Assembly (NCBI GenBank): GCA_002070275.1 | Contig: MWCY01000009.1 | Span: 1-64,000, forward strand | Length of the DNA stretch: 64,000 nucleotides | Source: Candidatus Hydrogenedentes bacterium ADurb.Bin170 | GTDB lineage: Bacteria > Hydrogenedentota > Hydrogenedentia > Hydrogenedentales > CAITNO01 | Direction: 5' to 3' | In this document: positions 1,461-38,003 of the stretch, one piece after another | How positions within the stretch are numbered: the first letter of the stretch is position 1 | Layout of the letters: each line of letters begins with the position of its first letter | Position numbers and translations under genes: made by a program | Notes under the pieces: generated by a model | Databases searched by the model: none | Seen by the model: the letters and a program-made list of their open reading frames with translations, nothing else | What the model was told of the DNA's origin: nothing

Positions 1461-3503
1461 TTATTCTATCACCGCTTCTTCCTCTTCGGTCCCGTCAAAA
1501 TCCACTTCCTGCTGTTCATGTATAGGCGTCATAACAGGAGCAGCACATTTATCTCCGTCACAATAGAGATCCTGTGTTTCATCCGTATTCATTGTACTGA
1601 AGTCGGGGACACTGAGTTTGGATACAGCAAGATCAAAGGCTTCTTTACTGATAGCCTGATACGGTGCCTGCGGATAGTTATGATCGACCAGCGGCAGAAA
1701 AGAAATTGATTTGAGGCGGGTTTCATACAATTCCAGAATATAAGGAATATCCAGCGCCTCTTCCGGCTTGAAAGTGATCGTGGCACTCACCTGATTATCT
1801 GCCCAGTAATATTGAATTTGAGCGACATTTTCAACCTGTTCCCAGACACTCACATCGTTTTTGCTGCGCAGGAAAAACTTTTCTTTTACAGGGAAATAAA
1901 CGACCAGCGTATTGTCGCCATAAACTGATTCTTCAATACGGTATCCCGCTTTACGCAATGGCTCAACGAGGGCACTCGTTTTATCCAGCCGGATCGTGCG
2001 CCAGTAATATTGGCTGTGGGGATAATGGATTCCGGGGGTCACGCCCGGCATCAGCGAAACAGTGCCGCTGGGTTTGATACTGGTGCGTTTGATGCTTTCC
2101 GGCACACAAAGCCACTGAGAATAGATGCGATCCAGTTTGCAGATGTACTGATACCCTTCATCGCACCAGCGGAAATGCTCACGGCGTCCATGACGGGTAA
2201 AACTTTCGACAATGCCTGACTGTGACAATCCGATGCGGCGGTTGCGCAGCATAATGGCATTGGTACGTTCGTTATGGGTCGGAATCAATGTCACGGTTTT
2301 TGCATAGAGATAAGCAAATTTAAGGGTTCGTTTATATTCTTCGAGTGATTCATGACGGGAGGGAAAAGTTTCGACCAGATTGCAGATCTCATAGGATTCG
2401 AGGCTCTGCTCGGCACAGGGATTTGTGCCTGCCACTTTGGCGTCGGCATAAGTGGGTCCGTCTTTCAGACGTCCGTAAGCTCTGGCATTCTCAAGCCAGA
2501 AATAACCGGGTTCGCCATTGAAAGCGGTCTGCGTCCCGGCCTTCATGTAGTCCATGCCTTCCCGGGCGATGACGCTGTTGTTGGAAGCCCAGCGCCACGC
2601 CATCAGCTGCTCCTGACACCGCTTGGGATCTTTCAGCTGCAAGTATTCTTCATCATCCGGAGAACCGAGCGCCAGCTCCGCCGTACGACGCACGCCGCCC
2701 GAAACGACACATTTCCCGATAACATTCATAAGGTCTGTGATATCGGTGGATGAGATGGGATGTCCATCTCTTGGCGTCAGAATCTTATCGATATTGCTGA
2801 TACATTCTTTCAGGGGATCAGGTCCGGGGGCGATTCCGCCAAAGGTTTTGATCTGTGAGCCCTGCGGTCTGATCTTGCTGTAGTCGATCTCACTGGGGCG
2901 TTTGCCTCGCCCGACATAGGCGTTGAGAATCGTACGGACAAGATCCGCCCATCCTTCTTTGGAGTCTGCCACTACATGGGTATATTCGCCTGTCTGTGGG
3001 GAACGGATGGTTACTTTGCCCGCCCCTTTGGTATCGAAAGCCACCCCGGTACCGAGCATGGACATATCCATGAGAAAGCAGAAAGGCTCGGCAAAGTCCG
3101 TATCGATTTCCTCGGTGGAGACAAAGGCACAGTTGTTGAGGGCTGCGCTTCCGCGCTGATAAATGTATTCGGAACCCATCATCCACAGACCTCTGCCCGG
3201 CGGCAGAAATTTAAAATCCCACATGAGCCGGAACATTTCCTGAGCGGAGCGCTGCGCTTTTTCGGGTTTCCAGGGCAATTTTAAACTGGCGCAGTGATTC
3301 CACTGGATGGTGTAGCAGCCTTCAACCACACGTTGAAGGGTTTCCCAGAACTCTTCTGTACGCCCGTTCGGATCATCGGGAACCACCCGCGCATAGGTGC
3401 GCTTGTAGGTGATATACCCGAGAGGGCCCCAGTCGGGCTGGCGATCTTTGAATTGAGCTAGAAAACGGGCATCCAGAGCAAACCGCTCTCTGACAGCAAA
3501 CAT
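1461..3503 (-). CDS. nrdJ: Class II ribonucleotide reductase, adenosylcobalamin-dependent, monomeric type
   Basis: A 680-residue enzyme that makes deoxyribonucleotides with adenosylcobalamin as radical source. It resembles the monomeric Lactobacillus leichmannii ribonucleoside-triphosphate reductase (about 740 residues), not the longer NrdJ/NrdA-like type. Visible hallmarks are an N-terminal-half cysteine in LNNCAFVST, the active-site loop NPCAEQSLESYEICNL with its thiyl cysteine and catalytic glutamate, and a C-terminal CDGDKC pair that would shuttle electrons from thioredoxin. It follows thyX by 83 nt and is probably cotranscribed with it, so reduction of ribonucleotides and dTMP synthesis are under one promoter. 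No cobalamin riboswitch is visible in front of it. Confidence 0.93.
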   Translation of the reverse strand: MFAVRERFALDARFLAQFKDRQPDWGPLGYITYKRTYARVVPDDPNGRTEEFWETLQRVVEGCYTIQWNHCASLKLPWKPEKAQRSAQEMFRLMWDFKFLPPGRGLWMMGSEYIYQRGSAALNNCAFVSTEEIDTDFAEPFCFLMDMSMLGTGVAFDTKGAGKVTIRSPQTGEYTHVVADSKEGWADLVRTILNAYVGRGKRPSEIDYSKIRPQGSQIKTFGGIAPGPDPLKECISNIDKILTPRDGHPISSTDITDLMNVIGKCVVSGGVRRTAELALGSPDDEEYLQLKDPKRCQEQLMAWRWASNNSVIAREGMDYMKAGTQTAFNGEPGYFWLENARAYGRLKDGPTYADAKVAGTNPCAEQSLESYEICNLVETFPSRHESLEEYKRTLKFAYLYAKTVTLIPTHNERTNAIMLRNRRIGLSQSGIVESFTRHGRREHFRWCDEGYQYICKLDRIYSQWLCVPESIKRTSIKPSGTVSLMPGVTPGIHYPHSQYYWRTIRLDKTSALVEPLRKAGYRIEESVYGDNTLVVYFPVKEKFFLRSKNDVSVWEQVENVAQIQYYWADNQVSATITFKPEEALDIPYILELYETRLKSISFLPLVDHNYPQAPYQAISKEAFDLAVSKLSVPDFSTMNTDETQDLYCDGDKCAAPVMTPIHEQQEVDFDGTEEEEAVIE

Positions 3504-3586: not shown

Positions 3587-4369
3587 CTAGACCTTGCGAT
3601 TCCCTGTTTTCACCCAGGGCAATCCATCCACCATTTCCACTTCATAATCAGAGAAAAGGTTCGGATAGCGTTCGCAAACGAGACGGTAGACTTCAGCAAA
3701 GAGAAATCTGATTTCTTCTTCGGCATGGGGATCGGTACGCATTTCGATCACATGCCGCACTGTCCGGAAATTGCAGGACCAGCCGATGGTTGTGGCAAGT
3801 CCTATGGGCGCAATCCGACGGAAAGCGGAAGTCAGCTTTTTCTTGACATCAAACTGTTTTTCTTCGTTAATCTGGTAGATCTCTGCAAGTTCCCTCTGCA
3901 GTTCTTCCAGATGTTCAATGGTGCGGACAAAAACTTCCATGCCCTTTTCGTTTTCACGAATGTGCACCGGCACATAAGCGGAGAGGTTGTCCAAACGCAC
4001 AAAGCGCAGCGATTCCTGCGAGATGGCGACACCGGCGCGGTGCCGTACCAGTTCATGGGTCACTACACGGCTCACATCAGCGAAAATAAAATTAAGCGAT
4101 GCATGCTCAAGAACGCTGCCGTGGCCGACTTGCAGTATGTTGGACAGATAGGGCTTATTGCCTTCGCGCACCCGGGTCACATTTGGATTGAGACCGGGGC
4201 TGAAGGAACGGTAGCAGAGTCTGCCCATCACCTCGCACAGGAGTTCAGAGTCACTGGGCGCATCACTTTTCCATTCTGGAGCCCCCACATGCTCTAAAAA
4301 CTGCTCCAAGCCCTCGGGAACGATCCGCGTTTCACCGACAAGAAATACTTTGGGAACAACGGTTTTCAC
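3587..4369 (-). CDS. thyX: Flavin-dependent thymidylate synthase
   Basis: A 260-residue ThyX, which methylates dUMP using methylene-tetrahydrofolate and FAD/NADPH. The signature reads RHRAGVAISQESLRF. Relative to the usual RHR-x7-S pattern it has one extra residue between RHR and the serine, but the SQES-R part is typical. It heads the thyX-nrdJ operon, so both steps feeding dTTP synthesis are coregulated. Its leader holds a strong promoter, a palindromic operator and a terminator-like hairpin, listed separately. No thyA is seen in the window. Confidence 0.92.
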   Translation of the reverse strand: MKTVVPKVFLVGETRIVPEGLEQFLEHVGAPEWKSDAPSDSELLCEVMGRLCYRSFSPGLNPNVTRVREGNKPYLSNILQVGHGSVLEHASLNFIFADVSRVVTHELVRHRAGVAISQESLRFVRLDNLSAYVPVHIRENEKGMEVFVRTIEHLEELQRELAEIYQINEEKQFDVKKKLTSAFRRIAPIGLATTIGWSCNFRTVRHVIEMRTDPHAEEEIRFLFAEVYRLVCERYPNLFSDYEVEMVDGLPWVKTGNRKV

Positions 4370-4435: not shown

Positions 4436-4479
4436 CCTTCCACTACCGCATGATTTTGGGGTATTAAAACAAAACCATA

Positions 4480-4489
4480 CAACATGTTG
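4480..4489. promoter_or_regulatory. NrdR-box-like operator at the thyX start site
   Basis: The perfect palindrome CAACATGTTG begins right after the -10 element of the thyX promoter, covering the expected transcription start. Its core fits the published NrdR box pattern (C-w-A-t-A-T-a-T-w-G) with two deviations. The same palindrome and two closer matches occur at the promoter at 35.9 kb. Assignment to NrdR is inferred; no nrdR gene lies in the window. Confidence 0.55.
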
Positions 4490-4518
4490 ATTATAAATTA
4501 TCTTTCCACGGATATCAA
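4490..4518 (-). promoter_or_regulatory. Sigma70-type promoter of thyX-nrdJ
   Basis: TTGATA (4518-4513), a 17-nt spacer and TATAAT (4495-4490) form a near-consensus promoter on the minus strand, about 120 nt upstream of the thyX start codon. The rest of 4519-4698, up to the aldolase stop codon, shows no gene. Confidence 0.8.
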
Positions 4519-35863: not shown

Positions 35864-35944
35864 CAACATGTTGCACTTTTTCCTCTTCTATGGTATTATA
35901 AGGTCAATATGTTGTGGTTCAAGTTATGAACATACAATATATTG
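35864..35944 (+). promoter_or_regulatory. Promoter with three NrdR-box-like palindromes
   Basis: TTGCAC (35871-35876), a 17-nt spacer and TATTAT (35894-35899) form a promoter. Three related palindromes surround it: CAACATGTTG (35864-35873, overlapping -35), CAATATGTTG (35905-35914, at +1) and CAATATATTG (35935-35944). The last reads ATACAATATATTGTGT and matches the NrdR box consensus acaCwAtATaTwGtgt at 15 of 16 positions. It lies 30 bp, about three helical turns, from the second. The rest of 35702-36022 holds no gene. Confidence 0.65.
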
Positions 35945-36022
35945 TGTATTTATGATTCCAGATAGCGCCTTACGACAAAGGGTAGACGGTATGCAACCAA
36001 AGATGCAACGGGAGGAAAAGAA

Positions 36023-37540
36023 ATGACACTTGTCCGACTTGTTTATCTGCCTGGTGAACCGGCAATCAATTCTTTATGCCCCAAGTCGGCGCTTCTGGAA
36101 GGTGTAGGTCAGCTTTGCGAGGCAGGCTTTCAAACCGATCTTCAGCACCTTGGAGAAGTGCGCTCGCATGGGGAGGCGTTGATATCTGAAACACCCCGCG
36201 TTGCATTGACCCCAGCCGAAGCAGTGAGCGGCCTTCCCGCCGCCGCATTAACGGTGTTTTATGCAGAATCCCGCGGGGACTATGAACAAGTCCGCAAAGC
36301 GAGTCTGCTCCTAGCGAAATATCATCCGGAGACAACGCAATTACTTGCCGGTCCCTTTGCGGTACATTTTGCAACCTGTGCTCTTGCTGACCTTCCGGTT
36401 TTAGACGGTGCGATTTCAGACCATCTGTCTGCTACGCTTCCACAGGCTGCGCTTTATCTTCTGGGAGGACAAAAGCGCCCGGACAGCGGCGACCTGTCTT
36501 TTCAGGAAAATGGCGGGAAAGCGGTATGGAAACGCCGGGCCGCCTTTACTACTCTTTCTCCTTTTGTATCAAGAAGACGCTGTGAGAAAAACAATCTCCT
36601 TCAATACTACCCTTTATCTTTTTCAGAAGGGCCATGCGCATTTTTTTATCAGGACAAAAAATGCAGTCAGCGCGGATCCAAATCAGCCGCGCTGCTCTTT
36701 AATGAAATTAAATGGCTCCATGAGAGCCATGATGCCACTGTTTTTCACATTGATATTCAACATGTTGCATCGGAAGAAGTGGAAGAACTTGCCCAGCGAC
36801 TATTAGACCACAACCTGATGATTCTCTACAGTCTTGGAAACGCCACACAGTCTTTTTCCCGCACTACGGCAAGACTGCTGCTTGCGTCCGGGTGCCGGAG
36901 TATCGGTTTCAGGATACCGACGGGCAGTCAGCGCATCCTGGAAGATTTTTACGGTATGCAGGTAAGTATCAGCGCCATGCAGTCAGTGCTTCGCCTTTGC
37001 CGTGATACCGGTCTGCAGACCGTCCTCCATCTGACGGGACCCTGTCCGATAGATGATATTCATAGCACGGCGGAGACTGTACGCTTTCTTGAAGACGCAC
37101 ACCCCCATAGCGTAACCCTCTCTCCGCTTGCCGTTGTACCACACTCACTTTGGTTTTGTCAGCCCCGTCGCTTTGGTCTTTCCTTCAGCTATAAGCACTA
37201 CCAGAAACAGATGGATCCTTTCCGCCTTCCTCTCACGCTTGCCGGCAAATGGAATAGGCATCGTCTTGCTTTTGTTAACAAAGTAATTCAGGATTACGCT
37301 TTCAAAGCGGGGCTTCTTTTTAACGCTGACGAGCGTTCGATGCTCCTGCTGCGCTTGCTTGGTATTGAGGGCGTGAGTGACTCAAGCCGCTTTCTGCAGC
37401 ATCTTTCGCGGCTGCTGGAGAGTAACGACGCTGCCGGTCTGTCTGATGTCATACAGAAGTTTAACCACCGTGCTACAGTAGCAGTTTCCAGGGATGCGGC
37501 GGCGATGCCCCATTTCGGTCAGGTTGCGATTTCCCGCTGA
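36023..37540 (+). CDS. B12-binding/radical-SAM-like protein lacking the CxxxCxxC motif
   Basis: A 505-residue protein whose outline matches cobalamin-binding radical SAM proteins. It has an N-terminal Rossmann-like half (VRLVYLPGEP, QLLAGPFAVHFATCALADL, LPQAALYLLGG), then a barrel-like half with ALLFNEIKWLHES, LLASGCRSIGFRIPTGSQRI and a glycine-poor TVLHLTGPCP. Where the [4Fe-4S] motif should be (usually SRGCPxxCxFC) it reads SEGPCAFFYQDKKCSQRG, with Cys205 and Cys214 only. A cluster of the usual kind cannot form. GGAGG precedes the ATG. It is under NrdR-like boxes and 142 nt upstream of trxA. Function unknown; a pseudo-enzyme, sensor or chaperone role is speculation. Confidence 0.6.
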   Translation: MTLVRLVYLPGEPAINSLCPKSALLEGVGQLCEAGFQTDLQHLGEVRSHGEALISETPRVALTPAEAVSGLPAAALTVFYAESRGDYEQVRKASLLLAKYHPETTQLLAGPFAVHFATCALADLPVLDGAISDHLSATLPQAALYLLGGQKRPDSGDLSFQENGGKAVWKRRAAFTTLSPFVSRRRCEKNNLLQYYPLSFSEGPCAFFYQDKKCSQRGSKSAALLFNEIKWLHESHDATVFHIDIQHVASEEVEELAQRLLDHNLMILYSLGNATQSFSRTTARLLLASGCRSIGFRIPTGSQRILEDFYGMQVSISAMQSVLRLCRDTGLQTVLHLTGPCPIDDIHSTAETVRFLEDAHPHSVTLSPLAVVPHSLWFCQPRRFGLSFSYKHYQKQMDPFRLPLTLAGKWNRHRLAFVNKVIQDYAFKAGLLFNADERSMLLLRLLGIEGVSDSSRFLQHLSRLLESNDAAGLSDVIQKFNHRATVAVSRDAAAMPHFGQVAISR

Positions 37541-37604
37541 GCACGCGGGGTTATTAATTTCCGGCGAACAGGCGCAGGTTGCTGCGCGTTTTCCATGTGT
37601 CCAG

Positions 37605-37634
37605 TTGGTATTTTTGCTGTCGATCCTGTATAAT
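37605..37634 (+). promoter_or_regulatory. Promoter of trxA
   Basis: TTGGTA (37605-37610), an 18-nt spacer and TATAAT (37629-37634). It lets trxA be transcribed independently of the upstream radical-SAM-like gene, which could also read through. Confidence 0.65.
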
Positions 37635-37682
37635 TCACGGCAGTCAAAAAGAAACACAGATCCAGATAAAAAGGGTATTGCG

Positions 37683-38003
37683 ATGAGTAACGTTGCTGAA
37701 CTTACAGAAGCCACTTTTAAAGATGCAGTGAATAGCGGTGTTTCGCTTATTGATTTTTGGGCAGAATGGTGCGGTCCCTGCCGGATGATGGGTCCTATCC
37801 TGGACGATGTCGCAAAAGCAGTCGGTGATACAGCCAATGTCTATAAAGTGAACGTTGACAATGCTCAGAACCTTGCGGCGACTTTGAATATTTCAAGCAT
37901 TCCTGCGCTGATTATTTTTAAAGACGGCGAAGAAGTCAAGCGCTTTGTCGGAGTCACTTCCAAAGGTGATCTTATCAGTGCGCTGGAAGCGGCGGCAGAA
38001 TAG
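37683..38003 (+). CDS. trxA: Thioredoxin
   Basis: A 106-residue thioredoxin with the redox centre WCGPC (FWAEWCGPCRMMGPIL) and the cis-proline region ISSIPALIIF. It reduces disulfides in the cytoplasm, including the C-terminal cysteine pair of ribonucleotide reductase. The ATG at 37683 follows AAAGGG; a longer in-frame start would overlap the preceding gene. Its position behind a gene with NrdR-like boxes links it to dNTP synthesis. A strong terminator follows. Confidence 0.95.
   Translation: MSNVAELTEATFKDAVNSGVSLIDFWAEWCGPCRMMGPILDDVAKAVGDTANVYKVNVDNAQNLAATLNISSIPALIIFKDGEEVKRFVGVTSKGDLISALEAAAE

Follow-up and report, generated by a model that had tools for sequence, protein, structure and literature searches.

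What does a protein do that is built like a cobalamin-dependent radical-SAM enzyme, has none of the cysteines for an iron-sulfur cluster, and lies behind what looks like a deoxynucleotide-responsive operator? The question is raised by a gene in the window, by which we mean the whole 64,000-nucleotide stretch of Hydrogenedentota DNA analyzed here. A sequence-only reading of the locus had proposed a conserved pseudo-enzyme that might serve as a sensor, a B12-handling protein or a reactivation factor. From the comparisons below, we conclude that the gene product is a conserved, putatively NrdR-regulated pseudo-radical-SAM protein. The gene and the elements within it are:

36010..36015, + strand: ribosome-binding site GGGAGG, read from the sequence; strong, 7 bases 5' of the ATG
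36023..37540, + strand: intact open reading frame with an ATG start, encoding a B12-radical-SAM-fold protein of 505 amino acids without cluster cysteines
36023..36500, + strand: N-terminal Rossmann-like (B12-binding-like) domain region, about residues 1-160, from strand/helix alternation in the model and from Foldseek
36605..36688, + strand: strand 1 and former cluster loop, residues 195-222, from alignments with intact orthologs
36923..36934, + strand: Gly301-Ser302-Gln303-Arg304, invariant or nearly so across the family in alignments
37040..37078, + strand: family hallmark Pro340-x-Pro-x-Asp-Asp-x-His-Ser/Thr-x-x-Glu-Thr (residues 340-352), from alignments

The segment order of B12-binding radical-SAM proteins, claimed by the sequence-only reading, is borne out by weak profile matches and by a structural model. 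A Pfam search of the window protein found no domain, PF02310 included; this profile matched 4 of 26 family members weakly, the window protein not among them. NCBIfam returned weak matches to B12-radical-SAM families (BzaD, HpnJ and a RiPP methyltransferase; 18-20 bits, E 3e-4 to 7e-4), which span residues 205-387. Its scores, 20 bits at most, fall far short of the equivalog or subfamily cut-offs (280-580 bits), which rules out assignment to BzaD, HpnJ or any other named NCBIfam radical-SAM family. The AlphaFold model, built from 26 sequences (mean pLDDT 82.7, pTM 0.85), has a radical-SAM barrel, and its best matches among solved structures are the cobalamin-type radical-SAM enzymes TsrM (top match, E 2e-14, TM 0.65), CysS, MgmA and TokK, and also AprD4. 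The match to cobalamin-binding radical-SAM enzymes extends across most of the chain, and the predicted fold is thus radical-SAM-like, as anticipated.

The window protein has its predicted two-domain fold in common with the cobalamin-dependent radical-SAM enzymes (TsrM, CysS, TokK and MgmA; ApyD, BzaD and HpnJ in NCBIfam), and the aGC motif of strand 4 with TsrM and AprD4. Unlike these enzymes, it has no CxxxCxxC and carries a motif of its own, P-x-P-x-D-D-x-H-T-x-x-E-T. AprD4, a radical-SAM diol dehydratase (fold match E 3e-11), is an example of one half of the architecture losing its cofactor: no cobalamin is known to bind to its B12-like domain. The cluster and the radical chemistry are retained in AprD4, whereas the window protein has lost the cluster instead.

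No CxxxCxxC occurs anywhere in the 505 residues. Alignment with intact orthologs places Pro204, Phe208 and Asp211 at the three cluster positions. Cys205 and Cys214, which had been read as a C-x8-C cluster site, are present, but their role as a replacement site is ruled out, because Ser and Arg occupy these positions in the same-genus ortholog (52% identity). That ortholog and the other closest relatives of the window protein also lack CxxxCxxC, and the missing cysteines prove to be a trait of the whole clade: they are absent from every ortholog in the window's family that spans the site, and from 51 of all 59 such orthologs. The motif is kept in eight (G028, G047, G052, G055, G057, G058, G061 and G067), all from one other family and distant from the window protein. 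Neither of the two findings that would have contradicted the sequence-only reading, an unrelated fold or a normal three-cysteine motif in close homologs, was obtained.

Might the gene be decaying, or might errors in sequencing or assembly explain the missing cysteines? The cluster loop does vary, with partial or complete deletions in several orthologs (G002, G006, G007, G011, G015, G027 and G037), and the protein diverges faster than the neighboring ketosynthase or nrdJ. Against this, frames are open throughout, the promoter is conserved, and dN/dS is 0.10-0.18 for pairs of cluster-less orthologs, similar to the 0.14-0.16 of cluster-bearing pairs, values with dS above 1 being rough. Cluster-less lineages are under purifying selection, as are the intact ones. 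With the loss in 51 of 59 orthologs as well, we consider local loss, sequencing error and pseudogene formation ruled out, and give decay or error hardly any probability; the earlier judgment of an intact, non-decaying gene with a strong ribosome-binding site stands.

The gene belongs to the core of the phylum. With a family profile, we detected it in 63 of 68 Hydrogenedentota genomes, mostly metagenome assemblies, and in all 38 genomes with a completeness of 90% or more; this agrees with the idea of a conserved pseudo-enzyme. A contig scan with two short motifs found no family member outside Hydrogenedentota, where relatives may still exist. On an ortholog tree made without the cluster loop, at least four transitions between presence and absence of the motif are needed; this tree was made quickly, many of its forks are weak, and the number is blind to gain versus loss. 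Since a precise three-cysteine site would be hard to regain, loss is the natural reading, and the [4Fe-4S] site has probably been lost repeatedly in this family. At the C terminus, 47 of 60 family members (for example, L053 and L057) end in a conserved A-V-G-N or A-V-A-N, a tail that the window's clade has lost.

What has been retained is a set of polar residues. Ser302, Gln303, Asp345, His347 and Glu351 are invariant or nearly so in both the cluster-less and the cluster-bearing groups. Judging from the strand order in the model, residues 302-303 follow strand 4 and residues 345-351 follow strand 5, which would make them neighbors at the barrel mouth. Such a site may suggest that the protein has kept an enzymatic function and has acquired a non-radical chemistry there through Asp345, His347 and Glu351, possibly using a metal or cobalamin alone. 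The invariance of these residues and of Ser302-Gln303 with or without the cluster is in favor of this idea, as is the residue after Phe241: 6 of 8 intact orthologs have Arg at this position and 36 of 51 cluster-less ones have His, counts that are not corrected for kinship. However, residues that are equally invariant in cluster-bearing orthologs may serve substrate binding only, and no known enzyme with the motif was found; we regard a new enzymatic activity as unlikely.

The second part of the question concerns control. Upstream of the gene, the following elements are found:

35871..35876, + strand: -35 element TTGCAC, from the sequence; the motif recurs in orthologs
35894..35899, + strand: -10 element TATTAT, from the sequence; orthologs have the same placement
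35903..35918, + strand: NrdR-type box 1, GTCAATATGTTGTGGT; matrix pair score 36.3
35933..35948, + strand: NrdR-type box 2, TACAATATATTGTGTA; 30 bp from box 1, with a 14-bp spacer

The promoter reads TTGCAC-17-TATTAT, and TTGCA-17-TANNAT recurs 5' of orthologs. The two 16-bp boxes lie directly 3' of the -10 element; their pair scores 36.3, whereas shuffled promoters reach 11.8 at most (99th percentile, 9.1 bits). A matrix scan of 55 ortholog promoters detected box pairs in 53, at distances of 29-33 bp; as the matrix was learned from these same promoters, independent tests weigh more. Across 476 kb of neighborhood DNA, pairs scoring 22 bits or more mark the gene in 50 of 60 genomes; the single additional one turns out to be the promoter of the gene in G052, where the open frame runs on across the start. 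The shuffles and the near-absence of pairs elsewhere rule out a chance AT-rich palindrome. A further palindrome, CAACATGTTG (35864-35873), overlaps the -35 element; the same ten bases recur at 4479-4488, where they make up the core of box 1 of thyX-nrdJ.

In published NrdR sites, palindromic boxes are about three turns apart and G-C pairs nine bases apart are conserved in each box; spacers of 14-17 bp are tolerated (PMC12051234). The spacing at the window gene and its conserved C...G nine bases apart agree with this description: two palindromic 16-bp boxes separated by a spacer in this range lie at the promoter. Similar boxes are present at the ribonucleotide-reductase genes and at part of the nrdR genes of the same genomes. 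In the window itself, the relevant features are:

1461..3503, - strand: nrdJ, adenosylcobalamin-dependent ribonucleotide reductase (RTPR), TIGR02505 above cut-off
3587..4369, - strand: thyX, first gene of the thyX-nrdJ pair, TIGR02170 above cut-off
4445..4491, - strand: paired NrdR-type boxes 5' of thyX-nrdJ (score 13.9, p 0.005 against shuffles)

Among related genomes, box pairs were found 5' of thyX-nrdJ in 21 of 23 (p ~0.005 each), near nrdR in 9 of 30 nrdR loci, and 5' of nrdD in 4 of 4, two of these weak. The nrdR gene is present in 62 of 68 Hydrogenedentota genomes. The window gene thus resembles the NrdR regulon (nrdJ, nrdD and nrdR), with its paired 16-bp boxes and ~14-17 bp spacers near the promoter. 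The regulated promoter with a dNTP-type operator, common to the gene and the thyX-nrdJ operon, is in line with the sequence-only reading. We infer regulation through an NrdR-type operator, with NrdR as the putative bound protein. Judged by its sequence, this operator connects the gene with the supply of deoxynucleotides.

Similar operator pairs also lie 5' of flagellar, pilus, mraZ and recF genes in other Hydrogenedentota, which suggests that the regulon may be wider than ribonucleotide reduction; the operator alone does not, therefore, mean a role in that process. Individual loci (L235, L236, L237, L238, L239, L241, L244, L246 and L249) have downstream genes resembling fliQ/fliR, fliF, mraZ, recF, pilB/GspE and pspA, names given by sequence reading rather than by family search. 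A strict version of the operator pattern has 22 matches in the 68 genomes, and the reversed pattern has none.

How far does the link extend to the adenosylcobalamin-dependent reductase itself? In the boldest reading, a former B12-radical-SAM enzyme would have become a dedicated cobalamin-handling or reactivation factor for this reductase, switched on by NrdR together with it; we know of no radical-SAM-fold pseudoenzyme in such a role, and this would be the first. A handling role for a radical-SAM-family protein has a precedent in the heme chaperones HemW and CgdH2, which act as tetrapyrrole carriers (PMC10320005). These proteins differ in that they bind heme, keep the cluster motif (CgdH2) and belong to another branch of the superfamily. 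The window's own reductase, an RTPR encoded behind thyX, suits the B12 idea of the sequence-only reading, but it is not the only one: the source genome also encodes a class III NrdD (G000:C7:71777-73498, outside the window). An NrdR-type box lies just 5' of this nrdD frame.

Since nrdJ, like the window gene, occurs almost throughout the phylum, their co-occurrence, which had been suggested as a check, says little. RTPR presence was judged by direct protein search only, PF02867 missing even the window's own RTPR. By this search, nrdJ is not detected in G003 (98% complete), which keeps the gene and NrdD; G029 keeps the gene and nrdJ, and NrdD is not detected. The second reductase, the G003 genome and the ketosynthase neighbor found elsewhere all argue against a specific RTPR link. 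The tie to the adenosylcobalamin reductase is weaker than that to deoxynucleotide supply, and we consider a dedicated cobalamin-handling factor improbable.

On the other side of the gene, the window shows:

37532..37587, + strand: two terminator-like hairpins at the 3' end of the gene
37605-37634: promoter-like site of trxA, which lies downstream of the gene

In both genomes of the genus, trxA directly follows the gene (window 37494-38003). Thioredoxin is the usual reductant of class II reductases. Within the window's own family, no conserved neighbor is common to all members.

The neighborhood is different in most other families, where a FabF-like ketosynthase gene lies 3' of the gene, often followed by that of a histidine kinase. 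One such ketosynthase follows the L053 match (G036:C20:69678-70919), and the same place is occupied likewise in about 35 other genomes; in many, a multi-pass membrane histidine kinase comes next, and in fewer a receiver-type protein. A close ortholog of this ketosynthase (52-80% identical to that of G036) adjoins the gene nearly throughout families f3, f4, f5, f8, f9, f10 and f11 where it occurs. All eight CxxxCxxC-bearing orthologs have the ketosynthase gene beside them. At the positions that we take, by analogy with FabF, to be the active site, it has Cys-His-Gln instead of Cys-His-His; Gln takes the place of the second His (KSM-x-GQ-x-Y) in almost all of 26 sequences.

These ketosynthase and histidine kinase neighbors point to acyl chemistry or signaling. 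We may imagine an acyl or polyketide pathway in which the ancestral enzyme acted on an acyl-pantetheine from the adjacent ketosynthase, the cluster-less forms being non-catalytic partners, or a remnant where the ketosynthase has been lost. This possibility, although doubtful, draws on the close ketosynthase ortholog in seven families with its altered second catalytic His, on the pantetheinylated substrates of the structural neighbors CysS and TokK, and on matches of some members to TIGR04072, a 'lipid biosynthesis B12-binding/radical SAM protein'. Yet a close ketosynthase ortholog is absent from the window's whole family (f1) and from f7, where gene and operator remain, which rules out a constant partnership; the ketosynthase cannot be the whole story. 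Neither an acyl carrier protein nor any other pathway gene is a recurrent neighbor, and NrdR control would be hard to explain.

The reading that we favor, tentatively and with a probability of about 0.45, is that of a ligand-binding, non-radical accessory protein of deoxynucleotide supply. Its ancestor would have been a cobalamin-dependent radical-SAM enzyme, of which the Hydrogenedentota protein would be a phylum-wide descendant. The [4Fe-4S] site has been lost, probably more than once, while the predicted two-domain fold and the polar barrel-mouth site (Ser302, Gln303, Asp345, His347 and Glu351) have been retained under purifying selection. Radical chemistry would have been abandoned, and the protein may instead bind a partner protein or a ligand, for example a corrinoid or something nucleotide-like. 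Because the boxes resemble those 5' of thyX-nrdJ, nrdD and a subset of nrdR genes, we infer that the protein would be produced when deoxynucleotides run low. Against this reading stand the ketosynthase and kinase neighbors of other families, the retention of the gene in G003, the operator pairs at unrelated genes, and the PF02310 search, which gave no direct indication that the window protein binds cobalamin.

Examples of pseudoenzymes are familiar from the kinases and phosphatases. In the literature searched, we found nothing on point for cluster-less radical-SAM proteins, for NrdR in combination with radical SAM or for Hydrogenedentota, and no B12-type radical-SAM-fold member of an NrdR regulon. 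A cluster-less radical-SAM-fold family that is core to a phylum and placed under a deoxynucleotide-type operator is unusual, and none has been described in that literature. The eight cluster-bearing orthologs, found at the same place, offer a natural before-and-after comparison, which would make a non-radical role of this fold directly testable.
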